Shown: positions 23,519 to 34,723 of the stretch, piece by piece
Numbering within the stretch: the stretch's first letter is position 1
Layout: every line of letters begins with the position of its first letter
Source: a candidate division WOR-3 bacterium
GTDB taxonomy: Bacteria > Hydrothermota > Tepidihabitantia > Tepidihabitantales > Tepidihabitantaceae
Direction of reading: 5' to 3'
NCBI GenBank assembly: GCA_013177935.1
Contig: JABLXZ010000001.1
Coordinates: 512,191-576,190 of the forward strand
DNA: 64,000 nt
Translations under genes and position numbers: made by a program
Notes under the pieces: generated by a model
The model's input: only the letters and a program-made list of their open reading frames with translations
What the model was told of the DNA's origin: nothing
Databases searched by the model: none

Positions 23519-25645
23519 CTACTTGACCCAGGGCAAATAAGAAGAAAGTTTCAACACCAGGCCAAGCACGACAATTGAAATCATCGACTGTAATTTCAGG
23601 AGGATGTTTAATGAAGGTCCTGCCGCATCCTTCAATGGGTCACCAACCGTATCACCAACAACACCCGCCTTATGCGCATCCGAACCCTTGCCCCCGTAGT
23701 TACCCTTCTCAATAAACTTCTTCGCATTGTCCCACGCACCACCGGTATTAGCCATAAAAACTGCGAGACAGAATCCGCTTGCCAGCCCACCAATCAGAAA
23801 TCCCGCAACACCCTCCGGACCTAAAAGAAGCCCGGTTATCACCGGCGCAATAATTGCGGTCAATGCCGGTGCCACCATCTCCTTCTGCGCCGCCTTAGTG
23901 CATATCGTGACCGCCTTCGCATAATCCGGCTTCGCCTTACCTTCCATCAGTCCCGCAATCTCCCGAAACTGCCGTCGCACCTCTTCCGCAATTTTCGAAG
24001 CGGTTCTACCAACCGCCTTCAACACCATCGAAGAAACACCCATTGGAATCACCGCGCCAGCAAAAAGTCCGGCAACAAGACGCGGGTTTAACAAAGAAAG
24101 GTCAAGCGTCTGGGTATAACCAAGGAACCGCTGGCTGACGATTCGTACCTCATCCCGATACGCCGCAATCAGCGCCAGTGCGGTCAAAGCGGCCGAGCCG
24201 ATTGCAAAACCCTTACCAGTAGCCGCGGTCGTGTTTCCCAGCGCATCGAGCGCATCGGTCCGCTCGCGCACAATCGGCTCCTGATGGGTCATCTCGGCAT
24301 TACCGCCGGCATTGTCCGCAACCGGACCATAAGCATCGGTCGCCAGTGTGATGCCGAGTGTTGAAAGCATTCCTACCGCTGATATTCCGATTCCGTAAAG
24401 ACCCAACCCGGCATTACCACCGCCTGCCAGATAATAACTGAGAATAATCGCCACCACGACAACCAGCACAATCGGCAGCGTTGACCTCATACCCACCGAA
24501 AGCCCTTCAATCACCACAGTTGCCGGTGAAGTCCTTGCTTCAGCCGCAATCGCCCGGGTTGGCGCATAAGAGTCCGAAGTGAAGTACTCAGTAAAGAAGC
24601 CAATCAGCACACCGGCAACAAGACCCGAAAGTATCGACCAGTAAACCGACCAGTACTGGGGTAAAAGCCACCTGGTGATTAGAAATCCGACAATTGCAGC
24701 AAGAATGGACGCACCATAAATTCCCCGGCGCAATGCGGCGAGAAGGATACTCTGTTCTGCCTTCTCACCCGCGCGCACCAGAAAACTGCCGATGATTGAA
24801 GAAACAATCCCCACACCGGCAAGCACCATCGGCAACAACACGCCGGCAATTTCAAAACCGGTGCCATTGAACGCCACAACCGAAAGCGCCATTGAAGCGA
24901 TAATTGAGTCAACATAAGACTCATACAAATCGGCACCCATACCGGCGATATCGCCTACATTGTCGCCAACATTGTCGGCAATCACCGCCGGATTGCGCGG
25001 GTCGTCTTCTGGAATCCCTGCCTCAACCTTACCCACCAGGTCCGCGCCAACATCCGCCGCTTTGGTAAAAATTCCACCACCTACCCGGGCAAAAAGCGCC
25101 TGAGAACTGGCACCAATTCCGAAGGCAAGCATTGTTGAAGTGATTAACTCTAACTTGTGCACCAGCGGCTCATGGGCATAGACCGCATTCAAAATCAGAT
25201 ACCAGATAGAGATATCAATCAAGCCAAGACCAACAACCACCAGACCCATCACCATACCGGAAGAAAAAGCCACCCGCAAACCAGAGTTTAGACTTTGCTT
25301 TGCCGCCCAGGTCGTGCGGGCACTGCAACGCACACCGATTGACATCCCGATAAATCCGGCAAGTCCGGAAAAGAACCCACCGGTCAAAAAGGCAAAAGGC
25401 ACAAACGGCGACTGCAACTTCAAAAGTGCCAGAATACCCAGAAGGACAAACACCACCGCAAAGAAAAGACTGACACCCTTATACTGCTGCTTCAAATAGG
25501 CGGTCGCACCCTCTTTAACCGCCCGGGCAACCTCTTTCATCGGCTCGGTGCCTTCGCTTTTCCGTAGACTGCTTACCGCCAGATACAGTGCAAATCCCAG
25601 CGCCAAGAGCGCGCTTGCTGGAGCAATCCAGAATGTTGGTGCCAT
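23519..25645 (-). CDS. hppA: membrane-bound ion-translocating pyrophosphatase (K+-dependent type)
   Basis: The 708-residue, ~16-helix membrane protein couples pyrophosphate hydrolysis to H+ or Na+ pumping. The substrate-binding acidic motifs are present: DVGADLVGKVE and DDPRNPAVIADNVGDNVGD. So is the C-terminal GGAWDNAKKFIE...DTVGDPLKDAAGPSLNIL. In GNTTAATGKG the residue after GNTT is Ala, the mark of the K+-dependent subfamily (Lys in the K+-independent one). That subfamily includes Na+ pumps and H+ pumps, which cannot be separated here. The start has AAGGAG upstream. The promoter is at 25713-25741, giving a leader of about 60 nt. Confidence 0.96.
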   Translation of the reverse strand: MAPTFWIAPASALLALGFALYLAVSSLRKSEGTEPMKEVARAVKEGATAYLKQQYKGVSLFFAVVFVLLGILALLKLQSPFVPFAFLTGGFFSGLAGFIGMSIGVRCSARTTWAAKQSLNSGLRVAFSSGMVMGLVVVGLGLIDISIWYLILNAVYAHEPLVHKLELITSTMLAFGIGASSQALFARVGGGIFTKAADVGADLVGKVEAGIPEDDPRNPAVIADNVGDNVGDIAGMGADLYESYVDSIIASMALSVVAFNGTGFEIAGVLLPMVLAGVGIVSSIIGSFLVRAGEKAEQSILLAALRRGIYGASILAAIVGFLITRWLLPQYWSVYWSILSGLVAGVLIGFFTEYFTSDSYAPTRAIAAEARTSPATVVIEGLSVGMRSTLPIVLVVVVAIILSYYLAGGGNAGLGLYGIGISAVGMLSTLGITLATDAYGPVADNAGGNAEMTHQEPIVRERTDALDALGNTTAATGKGFAIGSAALTALALIAAYRDEVRIVSQRFLGYTQTLDLSLLNPRLVAGLFAGAVIPMGVSSMVLKAVGRTASKIAEEVRRQFREIAGLMEGKAKPDYAKAVTICTKAAQKEMVAPALTAIIAPVITGLLLGPEGVAGFLIGGLASGFCLAVFMANTGGAWDNAKKFIEKGNYGGKGSDAHKAGVVGDTVGDPLKDAAGPSLNILLKLQSMISIVVLGLVLKLSSYLPWVK

Positions 25646-25712
25646 AAATTAAACTCCTTTCTTTATAAAATTCACCATCCCAATATTAACTTTTCCCCGG
25701 TGCGAGAGTCTG

Positions 25713-25741
25713 AATATAATACAACCATTTTCTACTGTCAA
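25713..25741 (-). promoter_or_regulatory. promoter of hppA
   Basis: On the minus strand TTGACA (25741-25736), 17-nt spacer, TATATT (25718-25713), about 68 nt before the ATG at 25645. This gene has a Shine-Dalgarno and a normal leader. Confidence 0.7.
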
Positions 25742-25765
25742 GAAATGTATGGAACAGGAAAGCAA

Positions 25766-25792
25766 TTGACAACCAGCCATTAAATGTTAAAT
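25766..25792 (+). promoter_or_regulatory. putative promoter of 25813 gene
   Basis: TTGACA (25766-25771), 15-nt spacer, TTAAAT (25787-25792), 20 nt before the ATG. AAAGGAGG lies in between. Confidence 0.5.
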
Positions 25793-25812
25793 TAAATTGA
25801 AAAGGAGGCATA

Positions 25813-27243
25813 ATGAAAAAAGCACTGCTAATCCTGACCCTGTTTTTCGCCACAACCCCCGTGCCGATAGCGGCTCATAACATAACAATTGACAGCGATG
25901 AAATCCCGCTTGTCATTGACGCTTATGGCAGATACCGGCAGAACCAGTCCCTTTTCTACTGGACACCGTTTGACTCCACCCGGCAGGTCTGGGATTTAAC
26001 CCGCTACCCTGGGCAACTGCGCGCCCGGGTTGGCTTACGCGACTACACCGAAGGCAGATATCCGGCACCGGACACGATGGAAAACGACCCACCGGACCCT
26101 GATGTGTGTGAATTTGACACCCTCGGCAACAACGCCGAATCCGAAGCGTATTTGTACTTAGATGAGTTCGGGCTTTATGGCGACGGTATCGACTTCTCCC
26201 AGCAAGGTTTTCGCTTCATTGGTAACTATCGGCCCGATGGCGTCATCTACAACCTGCCGATGTACTTTGGTGCCAGCTGGATAACTGCCTGGTCCTGGCA
26301 GTACGAAATTTTTCCCGGCATACCTTATCAGGCAACTGAACAGCACCAGAAACGGATTGTTGCCAGAGGTAAGGTAAAAGTGCCGATGTCCGGTGAATAC
26401 TTCTGGCCCTGCCTCGTAATCAGAGATTATATGGTTTACTCCGACAATATGGGCACCAATGACCGGCGCTGGATTTACGAATGGGTTGTACCGGGCCACT
26501 TCTGCGGTGCCAACGGTGTTGCCGCGGCACTGAGCCAGAACGGTGCTTCACCCGACTTTGTAACCGTCGAAACCTTTATGCAACTGGACACCCTCTACAT
26601 TCCAGGCTGGGACCTCTATCCCCCAAGATTCGGCGCTACCACAATCTGGACCGACACATCCTTTACTGGTCCATTTGTCGTCTCCTCGGTTATCACCGAC
26701 AACGATGCGGTGGGCGAAGAGTCGCTCTTCTACCGCGTCAACCTCGCGCCCACCTGGACTTCAGTTCCTGCCGACTCCCAGCGCGGCAACACCTACTATT
26801 TCACCATCCCTCAGGTTACCGCACCCGCGCGCATCGACTACTACATCTGGGCAATGGACGAGTTCTGTGCTGACAACGACATTGAATTCTGGACCACTTT
26901 CCCGTTCTGCTCGCCCGAAAGCACAATGATTACCTTCAATGTCAGCCTCACAGGTCAGGAAGAGTTTAAACCACTGCTCCCGGGTCAAGCGCAACTGACC
27001 ATCACGCCCAATCCGGCAAAAGATATTGCCCTGTTCCGGCTTAACCATCCCTATGCCCGCACCGCCCGAATTGAAATCTACCGTGTTGACGGCACCCTGC
27101 TAAACTCCCTGACACTCCAGCCCGAATCCAAAGGAACACTCTCTGCCTCCTACTTGACCCAGCACCTTGCTGCCGGCACCTACTTCTACCGCTGCCTTGC
27201 TCCCAGCTTCACCCAGACCGGCAAATTTACCATCTCAAAATAG
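25813..27243 (+). CDS. secreted protein with C-terminal sorting domain, function unknown
   Basis: The 476-residue protein has a signal peptide (about 1-21). A central region of about 380 residues is rich in Trp, Tyr and Pro with no family I recognise; it includes GNYRPDGVIYNLPMYFGASW and a long aromatic segment at about 150-230. The C-terminal 80 residues (LTITPNPAKDIALFRL...RIEIYRVDGTLLNSL...LAAGTYFYRCLA...GKFTISK) are a T9SS-like sorting domain. AAAGGAGG upstream supports the start. It is followed 8 nt later by the adenosine-specific kinase gene, with which it may be co-transcribed. Confidence 0.78.
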   Translation: MKKALLILTLFFATTPVPIAAHNITIDSDEIPLVIDAYGRYRQNQSLFYWTPFDSTRQVWDLTRYPGQLRARVGLRDYTEGRYPAPDTMENDPPDPDVCEFDTLGNNAESEAYLYLDEFGLYGDGIDFSQQGFRFIGNYRPDGVIYNLPMYFGASWITAWSWQYEIFPGIPYQATEQHQKRIVARGKVKVPMSGEYFWPCLVIRDYMVYSDNMGTNDRRWIYEWVVPGHFCGANGVAAALSQNGASPDFVTVETFMQLDTLYIPGWDLYPPRFGATTIWTDTSFTGPFVVSSVITDNDAVGEESLFYRVNLAPTWTSVPADSQRGNTYYFTIPQVTAPARIDYYIWAMDEFCADNDIEFWTTFPFCSPESTMITFNVSLTGQEEFKPLLPGQAQLTITPNPAKDIALFRLNHPYARTARIEIYRVDGTLLNSLTLQPESKGTLSASYLTQHLAAGTYFYRCLAPSFTQTGKFTISK

Positions 27244-27251
27244 GGGGAAAA

Positions 27252-27734
27252 ATGGAAATAAAAACGGTCCCGATAGAAAAACCGGCAGAAATCAACCTCA
27301 TTCTCGGCCAATCCCACTTCATCAAAACGGTCGAAGACATCCACGAACTCCTTGTCACCGCCATCCCTGGTGTAAAATTCGGCATCGCCTTCTGCGAATC
27401 TTCCGGACCCTGCCTTATCCGCCACACCGGCACCGACCCCGAACTTGAACAACTTGCAGTCAAAAACGCCCTTGCCATCGGCGCGGGCCACTCATTTATC
27501 ATATTCCTCGGCAACGCCTACCCCATCAACATCCTCAACGGCTTAAAACAGATTCAGGAAGTGTGTACCATCTACTGTGCCACTGCCAATCCGGTCAAAG
27601 TTGTCATTGCTGAAGACGAAACCGGTCGGGGCATTCTTGGCGTCATTGACGGCGAAAAACCAAAAGGGGTTGAAACTGAAAAAGAGATTGCCGAACGCAA
27701 AAACTTCTTGCGAAAAATCGGCTACAAACAGTAG
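27252..27734 (+). CDS. adenosine-specific kinase family protein (DUF355)
   Basis: The 160-residue protein matches the small DUF355/PF04008 family along its whole length. Landmarks are LGQSHFIKTVEDIHE at about 18-32, VKFGIAFCESSGPCLIR at about 41-57, the GAGHSFIIFLGNAYPINILN block at about 77-96, and ANPVKVVIAED near 112-122. Structural work on archaeal homologues suggested adenosine-dependent kinase activity. The physiological role remains weakly defined, so the name is by homology only. It is cytosolic with no signal peptide. The family is common in archaea and thermophiles. Confidence 0.85.
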   Translation: MEIKTVPIEKPAEINLILGQSHFIKTVEDIHELLVTAIPGVKFGIAFCESSGPCLIRHTGTDPELEQLAVKNALAIGAGHSFIIFLGNAYPINILNGLKQIQEVCTIYCATANPVKVVIAEDETGRGILGVIDGEKPKGVETEKEIAERKNFLRKIGYKQ

Positions 27735-27947
27735 ATTCGGGCCTTTCGTGCTAACTGCGGGTAGATTGAATTATATCTAACTAAGTGGCTACTTCTTTTC
27801 TCAAAAAATTATAGTTTTGGCATTAACCGCCAGAAGTTAAAAGAAAGCTTTTATACCACCACAATTAAACTTGTTGTTAGATTAAGAATTATTTCGGCAT
27901 TAAGCCGGGGTAAATAATTTAAGCGGGAGCGACTCTGTTAAAATAAA
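27735..27947. other. AT-rich intergenic spacer
   Basis: This 213-nt spacer between convergent genes is noticeably more AT-rich than its surroundings on the left. No strong hairpin, gene or RNA was seen. Confidence 0.4.
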
Positions 27948-28790
27948 CTAAAGGTTTCCTGCGGTATCTTGTTCTCTTACTTCCTCATAACAACTATAAA
28001 GGTACAAAGACAGAGTTTTGACAGAATTAACTGTTAAAATAGAAACATGCCTCAGCATTTCTTGGTTATATTGAGCTAATCTACCATGACGGTCCGCCAT
28101 TCTATTGCTGATTCCGGATACGCCAGCAACGATAGCAGTTAGACCACCTAAAACTTTCTTTATATCATTTGCTGTATTTTCTGCTGTATTCAGTTTAATA
28201 ATCAGCTTTGCTACATCCTTATAAAGTCGAGGCAAATCACCCGTGAAGGTGTATTTTTCTCCTTTAATCTGAAGGTAAATATACAAAAGCAAACCTTCTA
28301 AAAAAGATCGCGCACTTGTAATCGCACCTGTGAAGTCACCATTTTTAATCCTGTTATCGCATTTTTCAATGTTTTCTCTAATAACCTCGTTATCCAGTTT
28401 AGATATTTCAGGTACCTCTATAGTTTCAACGGCGGTAGATACTAACATCGCTCTTCTATCATTGATTTCTAATTTATATCCATCGTACTTAAGATATTCA
28501 TTAATACGATCTCTAAGTTTATATAACAAATCTTCTTTTCCAATAAAATTTCGGGGATTAAAATAAGCCTCAAATACTTCATTAATCCGTTCCTGTTCAT
28601 TTAATTCCCGAAGCCTCGTTTCAGTATAATCCCTCCTAGAAGGGAAACCACGCCCATAAGTATCATTAAATCCCAATGAATTAAAAAAACTTACTAACTT
28701 AGGTCCACTATTATAAGCAGATATTTTTTTATCTCCAGTAATAACATCTCTTAAAAATTCCAAAGTTTCCTGTGAAATTTTAACTTCCAT
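27948..28790 (-). CDS. Abi_C-like (HEPN-type) abortive-infection-related protein
   Basis: The 280-residue protein has an uncharacterised N-terminal half and a C-terminal half (about 155-265). The latter resembles the abortive-infection C-terminal domain (PF14355 type): ITSARSFLEGLLLYIY, LPRLYKDVAKLI, IKKVLGGLTAIVAGVSGISNRMADRHG, then a conserved helix LTVNSVKTLSLYLY. Such domains belong to the HEPN ribonuclease superfamily and occur in phage-defence proteins. The usual R-N-x5-H-G box is S228-N229-R230...H235-G236 here, so the conserved Arg is replaced, although R230-x4-H235 still fits a loose HEPN pattern. Codons are more AT-rich than neighbouring genes, and the flanks are AT-rich, suggesting horizontal acquisition. 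AAGGAG precedes the ATG. No toxin-antitoxin partner is adjacent. Confidence 0.62.
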   Translation of the reverse strand: MEVKISQETLEFLRDVITGDKKISAYNSGPKLVSFFNSLGFNDTYGRGFPSRRDYTETRLRELNEQERINEVFEAYFNPRNFIGKEDLLYKLRDRINEYLKYDGYKLEINDRRAMLVSTAVETIEVPEISKLDNEVIRENIEKCDNRIKNGDFTGAITSARSFLEGLLLYIYLQIKGEKYTFTGDLPRLYKDVAKLIIKLNTAENTANDIKKVLGGLTAIVAGVSGISNRMADRHGRLAQYNQEMLRHVSILTVNSVKTLSLYLYSCYEEVREQDTAGNL

Positions 28791-29577
28791 AAAACTCCTT
28801 TTTTTATCTTGTCTTCTTTGCTCACTCTATAATCCTCATCGTCAATCTCGCTGTAATTGAGATTGAGGTGGTTTTTATCTTAGAACTCAAGCAAAAACCT
28901 TTTCTGGTTTTGAATTTATACTTGTTTGCCATCACTACCTCTCTTGATAGATGTACTTTTCCAAAAATAATAGTATACTCTCACCCTTCGCCTGTCAAGA
29001 CCCCGACATCATCAGAATGCCCTTTGTGAACGGGTATCGGGTATAAAATTCAGGCACTGAGTTGTAATAGGACATTGGTTTAAGCGTAGTACATATTGCC
29101 GCTCCAGCATTCCAACCCATTTAGCTTACGGGCTTTATGTCGAAAATTGCGCCTGTTATGTGAACCATAAAATTTTCCACCTTCCATAATGTTAACCATC
29201 ATTAAATCCGTCACTTAATCGTGTTAAACTTTGCCCCTGTCACCCCACGGATAAGGGTTCAATAAGTCGGTCGGGAAACCGCTCCGGGAGTCGCTCCCAG
29301 AGCCGTCCCTCAACTCAGTTGCCGAATGCTTTTCACCACCCCATCTGAGTCTGCCTCTTCATCGGTATCCACAATTATAACCCATTCAAAATCAGATGGT
29401 TATACTGCCGTGGTATCTGGCGCCATTTAAATGGCTATCACGGCACAGGTTCCGGTTTCTGTTTCGGTACCGGTGTCAGCCGCTATCGGTTATACTGTTT
29501 GGGAGAAAAATTTCCGGTCAATTTTAACCCCAATTTTGGATAAAGAAGCCTGATGAAAAATCCCCTTGTTTTCCCTC
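28791..29577. other. long intergenic region with inverted repeats
   Basis: About 790 nt without a credible gene. It holds CAATCTC/GAGATTG (28843-28849 / 28859-28865), an imperfect hairpin at 29281-29303, and a nested palindrome at 29407-29444. The 10-mer GGTTATACTG also occurs twice (29398 and 29487). Neither RNase P, SRP nor tmRNA signatures were found. Confidence 0.45.
29407..29444. repeat. nested inverted repeat
   Basis: A perfect 14-bp palindrome GCCATTTAAATGGC (29422-29435) is flanked by outer arms GCCGTGGTAT and CTATCACGGC that pair with mismatches. No T-run follows, so a terminator is unlikely. It could be a remnant of a mobile element or a regulator site. Confidence 0.4.
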
Positions 29578-29605
29578 TTGACTTTCGCTTGTCCATCTTT
29601 ATCCT
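29578..29605 (+). promoter_or_regulatory. promoter for 29609 gene
   Basis: TTGACT (29578-29583), 16-nt spacer, TATCCT (29600-29605). The first ATG is 3 nt on, GTG 6 nt and a second ATG 9 nt. TATCCT also occurs as the -10 at 56773 and 63209. Confidence 0.6.
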
Positions 29606-29608
29606 GAA

Positions 29609-32185
29609 ATGGTGATGTTTCGCAGGTTAACAGTTGTTCTTCTTGCTGTTTTCTCTCTTGCCCTTGCAACCCGCATCTGGACACCCGAAGAACTGAATCG
29701 CCATCTTTTGATGTATCAACCTGCCTGGTCCTGCCGCCCGGAAACGCTCCTTTTAGGACCACGGCGGTTTAACTATCTGCACCGGATAAAACTTTTGTGC
29801 GAATTTCTTGTCCGCTATCAGGTAAGCGACTCCACATCACCGGACTATGGTGGCATAATTGAAGCCGAGCACCTGCCAAATATCATTGAAACCGACAACA
29901 CCCAGGAGGCGCTCTGGGTCTGGACCCGCTGGTATGAACTCACCGGCAGGGACGAGTATCGGCAGAACATCAACCGCGCCTGGCATTACATCCTGAACCA
30001 TCCCGCATATCAGGAGCATCAGGGCAGTCCGGCAAACATCTGGTATGCGGTCTGGAACTGCGGTCTGGGAATGTGGGCAGAGGCGCTTTATCGCCGGGTT
30101 TATCAGGACTCATCCTACCTTTTCTACGGGGACTCGTGCCGGAACTTTTATCTCACCCATCCGCTCAATCCGGCAAACTACCTTGAGAACTTTGTTACCG
30201 CCCAGAGTTCGGGAATGGCTTACGACTATGCCCGGGAAAGAAACGACCCGGTTCTGAAGGACACCGCGCTCGTGCGGGGAATGAGAGTTAAAAACTGGAT
30301 TGAAGAGAGTGCCCGGAACCGATTGGGTTTTCAAAACTGGGCGATGTGTGGTGGCACCGCTTTCTGGGGTGTTGCAAAAACATTCGGTCAGGAGGACACG
30401 ATTGCAGGCAGGCAGTGGCTTTTGACCTATGCCGAATCTTTGCCCGGGTTTTACCCTACCGGCACCTGGAACTGCTCGCACAACATCTGGCTCGCCAATG
30501 CCTATCGGGCAGCAGCGGAGTTGACCAATAACCCCACTTATTTTATCTACCATCAGTACCTCACCGACACCCTTTTGATGAAGGACACCGACCTTGACGG
30601 TGGTATTCCGGCAACCTGGACCGACCCGAACATACAGGACCAGACCTGGGTCTCAACCTATCTTGACTTTATGGGAATGGACCGGCTTGTGAGCCCGGTT
30701 TATGACCAGGATTTGGCGCTATTGCAATTTATTGACCCGGAACTCGGGCGTCTTTATCTCGTAGGAGAAACAATAGATGTCCGATTACCGATTGCCAATG
30801 TCGGTAGAAACAACTCTACTTTAGCAACCCTGACCCTGTTTGTTGCCAATGTGCCGGTTGACTCTACAACTGTACCGGCGCTACCCTTCCTTGCCACCGA
30901 CACCTTTGCCTTCTCTCACCTGGCCCTTAACACATCTGGTCCGCTCGAACTGCGTGCGGTCTTGAGCCCGGACCAGAACCCGGCAAATGACACGATTCGT
31001 CAACCGCTTAAAGTGTATAAACATTGTACCGTTACCGGCACCTTAATCGACTCGCTTAACCGTAGCCCGGTAACAGCGAAAATAAGAGCGCAACTTTTCG
31101 GTAGAAACGAAATCTGGGACTCAACAACCACCGACTCTGCTGGCAACTTCTCTTTGACCCTGATTGACTCGATATTCGCCTTAACCATAGAACCACCGCC
31201 ACCTTATCACCACTTTACCCAGAACATCCGGTTTAATGCCGATACAAGCATCACCCTTTATGCCCAGCCCGCTGCGGTGCTGATTGTCAATAACGACACC
31301 CTGAGTAATTACACCGGCTATTACACCACAACCCTTGACACACTTGGCGTAACCTACTGCGTCTGGCTGAGAAGGAGTCAGGGACCACTTCCGGGCGCCT
31401 TACTTGACCGGTTGCAAAACCGCACCGTCATCTGGTTTACGGGCAACAGCCGATACCAGACCGTGCCGGTTTTGGACCAGGATACGCTTAGCCAGTTTCT
31501 CAGCCAAGGTGGAAATCTTTTGCTTACCGGCCAGAACATCGCTGAGGACCTTGCCGGCACCGTATTTCTGGAAAGCATTGCAGGCTGCCGGTTTGACTCT
31601 TCCGGTTATTCAGGATTTTTGGTTTTCGGCAACCGGGCAGATTCGGTCGGCAGAGAGGTGATCGGCAGCGCAACCGCAGGTGGCAATGGCGCCAACAACC
31701 AGACATCAAGGGACATCATTGAGCCGGTTAACAATAGCCGGCTGTTTCTTGTTTACGACACCACAACCAATCTTGGTGCAGGAGTGAGAAACCAGTTGAA
31801 TTCGGGTGGTCGGGTAATAGCACTTGGTTTTGGTTTTGAAGCGGTCAATAGGCCCGCATCCCGACCCAACTACTTCACCCGGGTGCAGTTGATGAACACG
31901 ATGCTCCAGTGGCTGATTTACGGCACCGGCATTGCGGAAACACCCGGGATTAAAGCCCAGCCCCGGGCATCACTTACCGCCTTCCCGACAGTTTTCCGGC
32001 AACACCTGCACTTATATTCTTCGCAACCGGTAACTGTTACAATTTTTGACCTCTCGGGCCGTACTGTTCTCTCAACCCGAATTCCTGTGGGAAAGACCCG
32101 ATTAAAACTGTCCAGTCTTGGTGCTGGTGTTTACTTCCTGCGCAGCGGTGATACGGCTCCCATCTCATTGGTGAAAATAAAATAA
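29609..32185 (+). CDS. secreted protein with six-hairpin-like N-terminal domain and sorting domain
   Basis: The 858-residue protein starts MVMFRRL. Given the promoter position, the GTG at 29612 or the ATG at 29615 may be the real start. A signal peptide (about 1-20) is followed by an alpha-helical region (about 45-350) rich in W and Y. Phrases such as ETDNTQEALWVWTRWYELTG and NPANYLENFVTAQSSGMAYDYARE are reminiscent of alpha/alpha six-hairpin glycosidase-type folds; no catalytic residue can be assigned. A CARDB-like domain (about 365-470), a carboxypeptidase-regulatory-like domain, a region with ILVNND...GGNLLLTGQNIAEDL (about 560-770), and a C-terminal sorting domain (LGAGVYFLRSG) follow. 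It is likely surface-exposed. Confidence 0.75.
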   Translation: MVMFRRLTVVLLAVFSLALATRIWTPEELNRHLLMYQPAWSCRPETLLLGPRRFNYLHRIKLLCEFLVRYQVSDSTSPDYGGIIEAEHLPNIIETDNTQEALWVWTRWYELTGRDEYRQNINRAWHYILNHPAYQEHQGSPANIWYAVWNCGLGMWAEALYRRVYQDSSYLFYGDSCRNFYLTHPLNPANYLENFVTAQSSGMAYDYARERNDPVLKDTALVRGMRVKNWIEESARNRLGFQNWAMCGGTAFWGVAKTFGQEDTIAGRQWLLTYAESLPGFYPTGTWNCSHNIWLANAYRAAAELTNNPTYFIYHQYLTDTLLMKDTDLDGGIPATWTDPNIQDQTWVSTYLDFMGMDRLVSPVYDQDLALLQFIDPELGRLYLVGETIDVRLPIANVGRNNSTLATLTLFVANVPVDSTTVPALPFLATDTFAFSHLALNTSGPLELRAVLSPDQNPANDTIRQPLKVYKHCTVTGTLIDSLNRSPVTAKIRAQLFGRNEIWDSTTTDSAGNFSLTLIDSIFALTIEPPPPYHHFTQNIRFNADTSITLYAQPAAVLIVNNDTLSNYTGYYTTTLDTLGVTYCVWLRRSQGPLPGALLDRLQNRTVIWFTGNSRYQTVPVLDQDTLSQFLSQGGNLLLTGQNIAEDLAGTVFLESIAGCRFDSSGYSGFLVFGNRADSVGREVIGSATAGGNGANNQTSRDIIEPVNNSRLFLVYDTTTNLGAGVRNQLNSGGRVIALGFGFEAVNRPASRPNYFTRVQLMNTMLQWLIYGTGIAETPGIKAQPRASLTAFPTVFRQHLHLYSSQPVTVTIFDLSGRTVLSTRIPVGKTRLKLSSLGAGVYFLRSGDTAPISLVKIK

Positions 32186-32245
32186 AAACCGCAACTTTTT
32201 CACCTTCTTTGTGGTCTAATAAATGACGATGACAGACAGTATAAT

Positions 32246-32272
32246 TTGACTTTAAGGCAAAAATAACATAAA
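32246..32272 (+). promoter_or_regulatory. putative promoter of clpC-bamA
   Basis: TTGACT (32246-32251), 15-nt spacer, CATAAA (32267-32272), 6 nt before the ATG at 32279. The -10 is a poor match, but no Shine-Dalgarno precedes the ATG. A TATAAT at 32240-32245 has no matching -35. Confidence 0.35.
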
Positions 32273-32278
32273 CTTTTT

Positions 32279-34723
32279 ATGGATATGCAGGAAAGATTTA
32301 CCGAGAGGGTTCGCAAAGTAATGTCTTATGCCCGGCAGGAGGCAATAAGGCTCCATCACGACTACATCGGCACCGAACACATCTTACTGGGCATTGTCAA
32401 AGAGGGTGAAGGCGTTGCCGCGGTTGTCCTGACCAATTTAGGTATTAACCTTGATGACCTGCGTCGGGCAGTGGAAAATGCGGTTCCTGCCGGATTTGAA
32501 ACGCTCGTTTTAGGCGAAGTGCCGCTGAACCAGGAGGCAAAATCGGCGCTCAACTTTGCGGTTGATGAAGCCCGCAAGATGAACCACACCTATGTCGGCA
32601 CCGAACACCTCCTTCTTGGACTTCTGCGCGAAGAGCGTGGTGTTGCCTGTCAGGTACTCCAATCTCTGGGCATTGATATCGAACTGGTGCGTCAGGAGAC
32701 GATTCGCCTTTTGAGCGGTGATAAAGGACCGGCCGGTGCCAAAACCCGTTCCAAGACCCCGGCGCTGGACTACTTTTCGCGTGATTTGACCCAGCTTGCC
32801 CGCGAAGAGAAACTGGACCCAATCATTGGCAGAGAAAAGGAGATTGAGCGCATTGTCCAAATTCTTGCCCGGCGCAAAAAGAACAACCCGGTTCTAATCG
32901 GCGAAGCCGGGGTGGGCAAAACCGCAATTGTTGAAGGGCTTGCCCAGCGCATCGTTGCGGGCAGGGTGCCCAATGTTTTAAAGAACAAACGGGTCCTGGC
33001 GCTGGATATGGCAGCGATTGTTGCCGGCACCAAGTACCGGGGTCAGTTTGAGGAGCGGTTGAAATCAATTTTGAATGAGATTCAGCATCATGGCGACTGC
33101 ATCATCTTCATTGATGAAATCCACACGATTGTCGGCGCCGGTGCAGCAGAAGGCGCAATTGACGCATCAAGCATCCTGAAACCGGCGCTTGCCCGCGGTG
33201 AGATTCAGGTGATTGGTGCCACAACCCCGGAAGAGTACCGCCGCTACATTGAAAAGCACTCCGCCTTAGAGCGCCGGTTCCAGAAGATTATGGTTGAACC
33301 GCCCACGGTCGCGGAAACGGTTCAGATTCTCCAGGGGCTCAAAGAGAAGTACGAACTGCACCACAATGTCACCTATGAGGATGCCGCGCTTTACGCTGCC
33401 GCCTACCTTGCTGACCGCTACATTACCGACCGCTATCTGCCGGACAAGGCGATTGATGTGATTGATGAAGCCGGCTCCCGGGTAAAACTGCTGCGGCCGG
33501 TAATCAATCCGGAACTGGACGAAATTGAAAGCAAGATTGAGAAAATCACCCGCGCCAAAGAGGAGGCGGTGCGGCGTCAGGAGTTTGAGCGCGCCGCGGA
33601 ACTGCGCGACGAGCAGAAGAAGTTGACCGAATACCTCAAGCGGAAACGCAAGGAGTGGGAAAAGAAGGGCAGTTTCCCGGTTGTTACCGAAGAGGACATC
33701 GCCTATGTCGTTTCGTCCTGGACCTCCATTCCGCTTGCCAAACTGGAAGAGAAGGAGTCTTCCCGGCTGTTGCGAATGGAAGACGAACTGAAACAGTGGA
33801 TTGTCGGACAGGATGAGGCGATTACCGCGGTTGCCAAGGCAATTCGGCGCTCCCGTGCCGGAGTCAAAGACCCGCGCCGGCCCATCGGCTCATTCATCTT
33901 TTTAGGCCCGACCGGTGTGGGCAAAACCGAACTGGCACGGGTTCTTGCCCGTTTCCTGTTCGGCGATGAGAACGCCCTGCTGCGGTTTGATATGTCCGAG
34001 TATATGGAGAAGTTCAATGTTTCGCGGCTTGTGGGCGCACCCCCGGGCTATGTCGGCTATGAAGAAGGGGGCCAGTTAACCGAAAAAGTACGGCGCAAAC
34101 AGTACTCGGTCGTGCTGTTTGATGAGATTGAAAAGGCGCATCCGGATGTGTTCAACATCCTGCTCCAGATTCTCGATGATGGCCAGATTACCGACTCCCT
34201 GGGCAGAAAGGTCAACTTCAAAAACACCGTGATTATTATGACCTCAAACATCGCCTCAACCGAAATCCGCGGTCTGTCCGGTATCGGTTTTACCCCGGCA
34301 ACACCCGAGGTGAACTACGAAAACATCCGGGACAAAGTTATGACCGAGGTAAAGAGGGTGTTCAGACCGGAGTTCCTCAATCGGGTTGATGAGGTAATTG
34401 TGTTCCGGCCCCTGGATAAGCCGCAGATGGAGGCGATTGTCGATATCCAGTTGCGGGAACTCTCCCGGCGTCTGGAAGAGAAAAAGATTACCATCGAATT
34501 GACCCCGGCGGCAAAAGAGCTTCTGGTTCAGGAAGGGTTTGACCCGCAGTACGGTGCCCGACCAATAAAACGGGCACTGCGCCGCCTTCTTGAAGACCCG
34601 CTTGCCGAAGAACTGCTCCGCGGTGGTTTAGCAGAAAACACCACGATTATCGTGGACCGGGATGGCAACCGATTAATCTTCCGGGAATCACCTAAGGGAG
34701 CCGAAGCGCCAATCAAAGAATGA
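32279..34723 (+). CDS. clpC: ClpC-type AAA+ unfoldase
   Basis: The 814-residue Hsp100 protein has a double Clp_N repeat (about 1-145) and AAA-1 with Walker [10 protein letters not shown] at about 207. A middle domain with a UVR motif ([18 protein letters not shown] at about 431) follows, then AAA-2 with Walker [10 protein letters not shown] at about 546. The ClpP-docking loop is GIGF in [12 protein letters not shown] (about 672), so it should feed unfolded proteins into ClpP. The short middle domain with UVR separates it from ClpB. The usual Firmicute partners ctsR, mcsA and mcsB are absent here. The stop overlaps the bamA start by 4 nt (ATGA), implying translational coupling of a cytosolic protease subunit to an outer-membrane factor. 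Confidence 0.96.

Follow-up and report, generated by a model that had tools for sequence, protein, structure and literature searches.

The window (the whole 64-kb stretch of DNA analysed here) contains an intact open reading frame with an ATG start that encodes a protein of 280 aa (Table 1). A preliminary description, made from the letters of the window, likened its domain to PF14355, and profile searches bore this out: the Pfam PF14355 (Abi_C) profile matched with 40.6 bits (curated cut-off 24, E = 2.7e-10) and the PADLOC AbiJ model (PDLC02347) with 83.8 bits (4e-24), from aa 20 to 269 and over profile positions 20–278 of 281. There was no match above a cut-off in NCBIfam. Judged by these profile matches, the product is a genuine Abi_C/AbiJ-type protein, and its gene is the sole match to the Abi_C profile in the 1.96-Mb source genome. 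Among PDB sequences, phmmer with the window protein found no match at E ≤ 1, and the family profile (alignment A2) gave weak matches alone (best E = 0.17).

In PADLOC, aa 6–126 of the window protein correspond to the beginning of the Stk2 model (45.9 bits), and a profile search found no match to AbiJ_NTD domains at E ≤ 10. All eight relatives scanned match both the AbiJ and the Stk2 models, and two of the eight match AbiJ_NTD3 below the cut-off. At five further loci (L005, L007, L008, L009 and L042; L006 is truncated) the window-type N-terminal domain is joined to a different C-terminal domain, which bears an R-[NS]-[YMFL]-[IV]-H-P box. To judge from the sequences, the N-terminal module is common to several effectors.

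Table 1. Features of the Abi_C/AbiJ-family locus (window coordinates)
Feature	Position	Strand	Evidence
Abi_C/AbiJ-family gene	27948..28790	-	ORF, Pfam and PADLOC profile matches
N-terminal domain (about aa 1–120), helices and beta hairpin	28431..28790	-	model, PADLOC Stk2 match
C-terminal domain of predicted HEPN fold (about aa 131–271)	27978..28400	-	predicted structure
Pfam PF14355 Abi_C match, aa 188–264	27999..28229	-	profile search
Putative active-site box, S228-N-R-M-A-D-R234-H235	28086..28109	-	sequence and alignments
AT-rich block without alignment to same-genus genome G111	27735..29181	.	blastn comparison

The AT-rich block and its surroundings

The ORF has a GC content of 34.0% versus 50.2% for the whole window, and a GC3 of 24.9% versus 55–64% in the seven neighbouring genes measured, in line with the low-GC codons noted at the outset. 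In the same-genus genome G111, the sequences flanking the gene can be aligned (25000–27734 at 85.5% and 29182–33000 at 81.8%), the 1447 bp between them (35.5% GC) have no blastn match, and their place is taken by 362 bp of other sequence (40.1% GC); the island therefore corresponds to about this segment (Table 1). Of the large gene-free AT-rich flank that had been described, the part at 28791–29181 (38.9% GC) belongs to the island. The part at 29182–29608 (46.1% GC) lies outside it because it aligns with G111; the sequence past 29182 is the common upstream region of the next gene. The low GC content and the absence of the block from G111 support the proposed horizontal acquisition of the window gene, within an AT-rich block of ∼ 1.4 kb.

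The counterpart gap in the sister genome (L043:4946–5307) is also filled with unrelated sequence, and the interval that separates the flanking genes may therefore be a small site of exchange. Around the block, neither a clear target-site duplication nor a flanking terminal repeat could be recognized; the repeats there are short, among them a perfect 11-nt inverted pair (27925–27935 and 29288–29298) that could arise by chance in a stretch of this size. There was no Rfam match within 26000–31000, and the number of promoter-like sites in the region (9) was not clearly above that in shuffled sequences (5.3, sd 2.6). A sigma-70-like promoter match (TTGACA, 17, TACTAT) lies on the reverse strand at 28970–28998, about 180 bp upstream of the window gene.

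Five neighbours in the window were scanned: three belong to the PF04008 adenosine-specific kinase family, the PF03030 H+-pyrophosphatases and the Clp-type ATPases, and the remaining two have sorting-domain-like tails, below the Pfam cut-off. Neither a defence gene nor a nucleotidyltransferase antitoxin was found among these five. The PF04008 gene adjoins the island at 27252–27734, and its protein is matched (E ≤ 1e-5) in 14 of the 18 genomes of the family, the source genome among them.

Within the phylum, relatives of the window protein were found by protein search in 10 of 147 genomes, and matches to the Abi_C model in four of 147, the source genome being counted in both cases; neither method found a relative in the two other genomes of the same genus. 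Relatives (identity under 60%) are present in 49 of 72,556 plasmid records, and two of 50,697 phage records carry them. Single-sequence scans of genome contigs and viral contigs, and a viral contig scan with family alignment A1, yielded no confirmed relatives.

Position of the arginine in the Abi_C box

The box of the window protein reads S228-N229-R230-M231-A232-D233-R234-H235. Counted from the histidine (position 0), the usual arginine seat (−7) is occupied by serine (S228), and an arginine (R234) stands at −1, just before His235. The conserved arginine is thus missing from its usual place, as had been recognized at first sight. The closest relatives share this form: the box is SNELGDRH in a protein (45% identity) encoded by a second genome of the phylum, SNMMADRH in one from an Allocoleopsis plasmid and GNKMSERH in one from a Megaera plasmid; others have RNKMSDAH.

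A profile search gave 167 hits, two of them fragments that lack the motif, which left 165 domains to be counted. The histidine is kept in all 165. Arginine is found at −7 in 134 domains (the R-N form) and at −1 in 31 (the Arg(−1) form), and no domain has both arginines or neither. An earlier alignment of 88 rows showed the same division (63 with arginine at −7, 25 at −1, none with both or neither); it had been reduced from 96 rows by dropping six proteins that share the N-terminal domain and have another or missing C-terminus (L005–L009 and L042), as well as L112 (short) and L122 (partial), both of the R-N form and both back in the 165-domain count. A relaxed threshold added 12 more divergent domains, all of the R-N form. 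Duplicates were removed for identical reading frames alone, so that these counts represent sequences and not independent events.

The sample of 165 domains is enriched for the subfamily of the window protein, and the share of the Arg(−1) form varies with the origin of the sequences: it is 21 of 69 in a scan that provided 71 further loci (one of which, L049, carries a gene of the phylum that had already been found), 4/19 and 1/4 in two other batches, and 5/73 in five phylum surveys. These surveys used the Pfam model, were not aimed at the Arg(−1) form (the split was 68 to 5) and sampled genomes of the phyla to which five of the scan loci belong. The survey centred on Leptolyngbya had matches in 16 of 319 genomes, that on Acidobacteriaceae in 21 of 317, that on Brevundimonas in 21 of 319, that on Saprospiraceae in 26 of 316 and that on Desulfuromonadales in 18 of 317, the names of the centres being taken from the locus titles.

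The vacated arginine seat is filled by small residues. Position −7 in the Arg(−1) form holds Ser (24), Ala (5) or Gly (2), and position −1 in the R-N form holds Ala (78), Ser (35), Gly (18), Val (2) or Phe (1). Columns −7 and −1 separate the two forms fully (JS 1.00 each; 0.40 for the next best domain column compared). The Arg(−1) form has Asp or Glu directly before the arginine and Asn or Asp at −6 in all 31 cases, and the 46-row alignment shows no variation at Glu165, Lys143 and Asp233. Serine at −7 is encoded by AGC or AGT, one base from arginine codons, in 22 of 24 cases, and serine at −1 in the R-N form by AGY in six of 26; this bias fits descent of the serine at −7 from an arginine codon in place. 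The codon count leaves out 14 of the 165 domains, all of the R-N form, in which extra residues in the box make the profile columns non-contiguous. Together with L165, L201, L208, L231 and L232, these 14 make up a set of divergent Abi_C domains in which extra residues stand between the arginine and the histidine, every one of them R-N; by these sequences, box spacing varies outside the AbiJ-like group.

The maximum-likelihood tree relied on here has 44 rows, was computed with the motif columns left out and does not infer root or direction by its method; two long-branched rows (L098 and L103) had been removed from the 46-row set, and two others (L094 and L095) remain long-branched. It requires eight switches of the arginine (6–8 in 5–95% of bootstrap trees), at least three of them on well-supported branches. 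Since every row carries exactly one of the two arginines, a switch at either seat always comes with one at the other. A compensated-pairs test had three independent pairs on well-supported branches, too few to be decisive (sign test, p = 0.25). Forcing the 22 Arg(−1) rows into a single clade costs 99.5 log-likelihood units (p-AU 0.00017), and a single origin of this form was rejected. Two poorer trees, of the 165 domains (109 columns) and of the 88 rows, need nine and 12 switches respectively, two of which are forced by well-supported branches in either tree. In the 44-row tree the window protein groups with L049 (100/98), and these with L050 and L060 (98/96). Two R-N rows, L060 here and L096 in another, mostly Arg(−1) group, are nested among Arg(−1) rows, and therefore switches back to the R-N form are likely. 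As a whole, the trees suggest that the arginine was relocated several times within the Abi_C family.

Relatives of the Arg(−1) form are under purifying selection, with no sign of relaxed constraint. Over the full length, three pairs gave pN/pS values of 0.14, 0.18 and 0.23 with saturated pS, and a fourth gave a dN/dS of 0.046; the HEPN parts of the same four pairs gave 0.14, 0.13, 0.22 and 0.046, so that constraint on the HEPN half is no weaker than on the protein as a whole. Six R-N pairs had full-length dN/dS values of 0.03–0.13, with which the saturated ratios, being rough, are not directly comparable, and all values are far below 1. The measurements refer to relatives, the window gene having none close enough for such pairing.

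The Arg(−1) form occurs in named isolates, e.g. Brevundimonas lutea and Novosphingobium umbonatum. The Abi_C proteins of L051 and L052, from metagenome-assembled genomes titled Gemmatimonadetes and Acidobacteria, are identical over the tree columns, which reflects either recent transfer or mis-binned contigs. Ten flanking genes were read at five Arg(−1) loci chosen from the 22 listed, and defence-type domains were present at all five: genes for an Eco57I-type methylase, an SNase and a CoiA-like nuclease at L049, a DNA methylase and DUF488 at L050, an Eco57I-type protein at L063, a TIR protein at L064 and, at L057, a Schlafen-group helicase whose gene adjoins a thioredoxin-like one. These flanking genes support a defence role for the family. 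The window gene stands alone.

Predicted structure and proposed role of the arginine

The model of the window protein (pLDDT 92.1, pTM 0.76) comprises a helical N-terminal domain with a beta hairpin (residues 105–118) and a helical C-terminal domain. The latter is predicted to have a HEPN fold, which supports the HEPN identity first given to it. In Foldseek, its best matches were the HEPN proteins 1ufb (probability 1.00) and 1o3u (0.99), with E of 0.1–0.2, and no PDB match at E ≤ 0.001 was found for either the window protein or its R-N relative L079. VIA gave Z-scores of 12.9 to 1o3u (119 residues, 3.5 Å), 12.3 to 2hsb and 11.0 to AbiA, and the six best chains (Z 11.0–12.9) were all HEPN proteins or AbiA, with the proviso that helical bundles without any relationship can also reach a Z near 13. 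Helix 208–232 ends within the box, with Ser228 and Asn229 in its last turns and Arg234 and His235 in the following loop, which is modelled with less certainty (mean pLDDT 72 for block 231–240). The model of L079 (pLDDT 91.6; 73 in the loop block), whose best fold matches are likewise HEPN proteins, shows the same helix break: its helix 211–234 holds Arg231, and Ala237 and His238 are in the loop. According to the models, the same place may lie within reach of a side chain attached either to the end of the helix or to the loop.

It appears quite probable to us that the window protein is an active HEPN ribonuclease with an arginine shifted by six residues, the product of a compensatory swap that has been repeated in the family. 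It would be a stand-alone AbiJ-like abortive-infection effector, in which the N-terminal domain probably serves sensing or regulation and the C-terminal domain would be the HEPN ribonuclease. HEPN proteins generally have their catalytic site where two protomers meet, in the cleft that they enclose. This site is made up, in proteins of the R-N form, of Arg (−7) and His (0) of R-N-x5-H; in the window protein, with Ser at −7, the catalytic arginine would be supplied by R234, the guanidinium group of which would reach the same pocket from the loop and not from the last helix turn. Through this shared position in space R234 would take over the job of the lost arginine, and we infer RNase activity, dimerization and a phage-defence role for the window protein. 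The chemistry, with Arg234 as the replacement, would be that of known HEPN RNases, described as metal-independent cleavage that leaves a 2′,3′-cyclic end and needs the His and, where tested, the Arg (PMC3710099). Triggered during infection via the N-terminal domain, the enzyme would cut host or phage RNA. Catalytic residues at different sequence positions and close in space have been described in related enzymes (PMC4751976).

Alternatively, the arginine could have a part in folding or in binding RNA and none in catalysis. In particular, an arginine in either seat may make the same salt bridge, e.g. with a conserved acidic residue (Glu or Asp), and so fasten the end of the helix and the loop to each other, with RNase chemistry, if any, depending on the histidine alone. 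We consider such a structural role unlikely, but it draws support from the acidic residue that always precedes the substitute arginine and from the invariant Glu165, Lys143 and Asp233. It also accords with the account of AbiA (PMC11077055), whose HEPN domain keeps R-x6-H in the form R-N-x5-H and mediates dimerization, yet had no RNase activity in the authors' in vitro assays. The argument against it is that the arginine is needed in the HEPN RNases reported as tested, the RNase L KEN domain and PrrC (PMC3710099).

In view of the replaced arginine (S228), the preliminary description had considered that the domain may be a dead or re-purposed HEPN nuclease. On this view, catalysis ended with the loss of the arginine, and binding of RNA or of a partner is the sole function left to the domain. 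This is very improbable: all 31 domains without that arginine keep the other one along with the histidine, the HEPN half is under no less constraint than the whole protein, and the R-N rows nested among Arg(−1) rows suggest switches back. The reading as a dead gene was rejected on the 165-domain count and on purifying selection in the relatives. Finally, R230, the arginine of the SNR triplet pointed out initially, fits the Rx4-6H spacing by sequence (R230-M-A-D-R-H235) and might form R-x4-H with H235, R234 being incidental, but this can hardly be credited and was rejected on the poor conservation of position −5, where Lys or Glu is the commonest residue and Arg occurs in only four of the 31 Arg(−1) domains and 18 of the 134 R-N domains, against 31 of 31 for position −1; by the alignments, R234 and not R230 is the conserved substitute.

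For the family, we lean, with somewhat less assurance than for the window protein as a relocated-arginine ribonuclease, towards a HEPN site with two interchangeable arginine seats, between which the catalytic arginine has moved repeatedly, perhaps in both directions, and which in our sample never hold two arginines or none. If so, a HEPN nuclease could be active without Rx4-6H, the motif of catalytic members, in which a polar residue follows the arginine. A rule based on this motif would call inactive the 27 of 31 Arg(−1) proteins that have no arginine at this spacing (−5 and −6 checked), whereas the pattern described here indicates an arginine kept in another place. Abi_C would then offer a natural series in which to follow the passage of a catalytic residue across a fitness valley, and the swaps might be driven by an arms race against phage inhibitors that target the active site. 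The reciprocal and repeated swap allows the relocation of a functional residue in sequence to be put to the test within one enzyme family.

Comparison with known systems

No description of a two-seat arginine swap was found in the literature searched, which is weak evidence, as subscription papers and supplementary alignments were largely outside the search. The window protein resembles AbiJ (PADLOC PDLC02347) and PF14355 in its profile matches and in the combination of an N-terminal domain with a C-terminal HEPN domain; however, AbiJ is listed as conserving Rx4-6H (Anantharaman et al., 2013; PMC3710099) and the window protein has its arginine at −1. The fold match to the C-terminal HEPN domain of AbiA (PDB 8oz7) extends over 123 residues, and the RNSNPVSH box of AbiA (581–588) is described as straddling the end of helix 565–585 (PMC11077055), as the boxes do in the models here. 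AbiA differs in having the R-N-x5-H form, in being fused to a polymerase and in the absence of RNase activity in its authors' hands. The MNT-HEPN toxins 7ae8 and 6m6w share the predicted fold (Z 9.4 and 9.7, respectively) but represent a different family, associated with a nucleotidyltransferase antitoxin.

Precedents for replaced active-site residues in HEPN proteins are provided by Parep1/8, which lacks the arginine, and by AbiV and AF0298-type proteins, which have an alternative histidine; in the account given in PMC3710099, other conserved residues are proposed to take over in such substituted families. In those cases the altered form is described for a family as such, whereas Abi_C is a single family that has changed between its two forms repeatedly and in a reciprocal manner.
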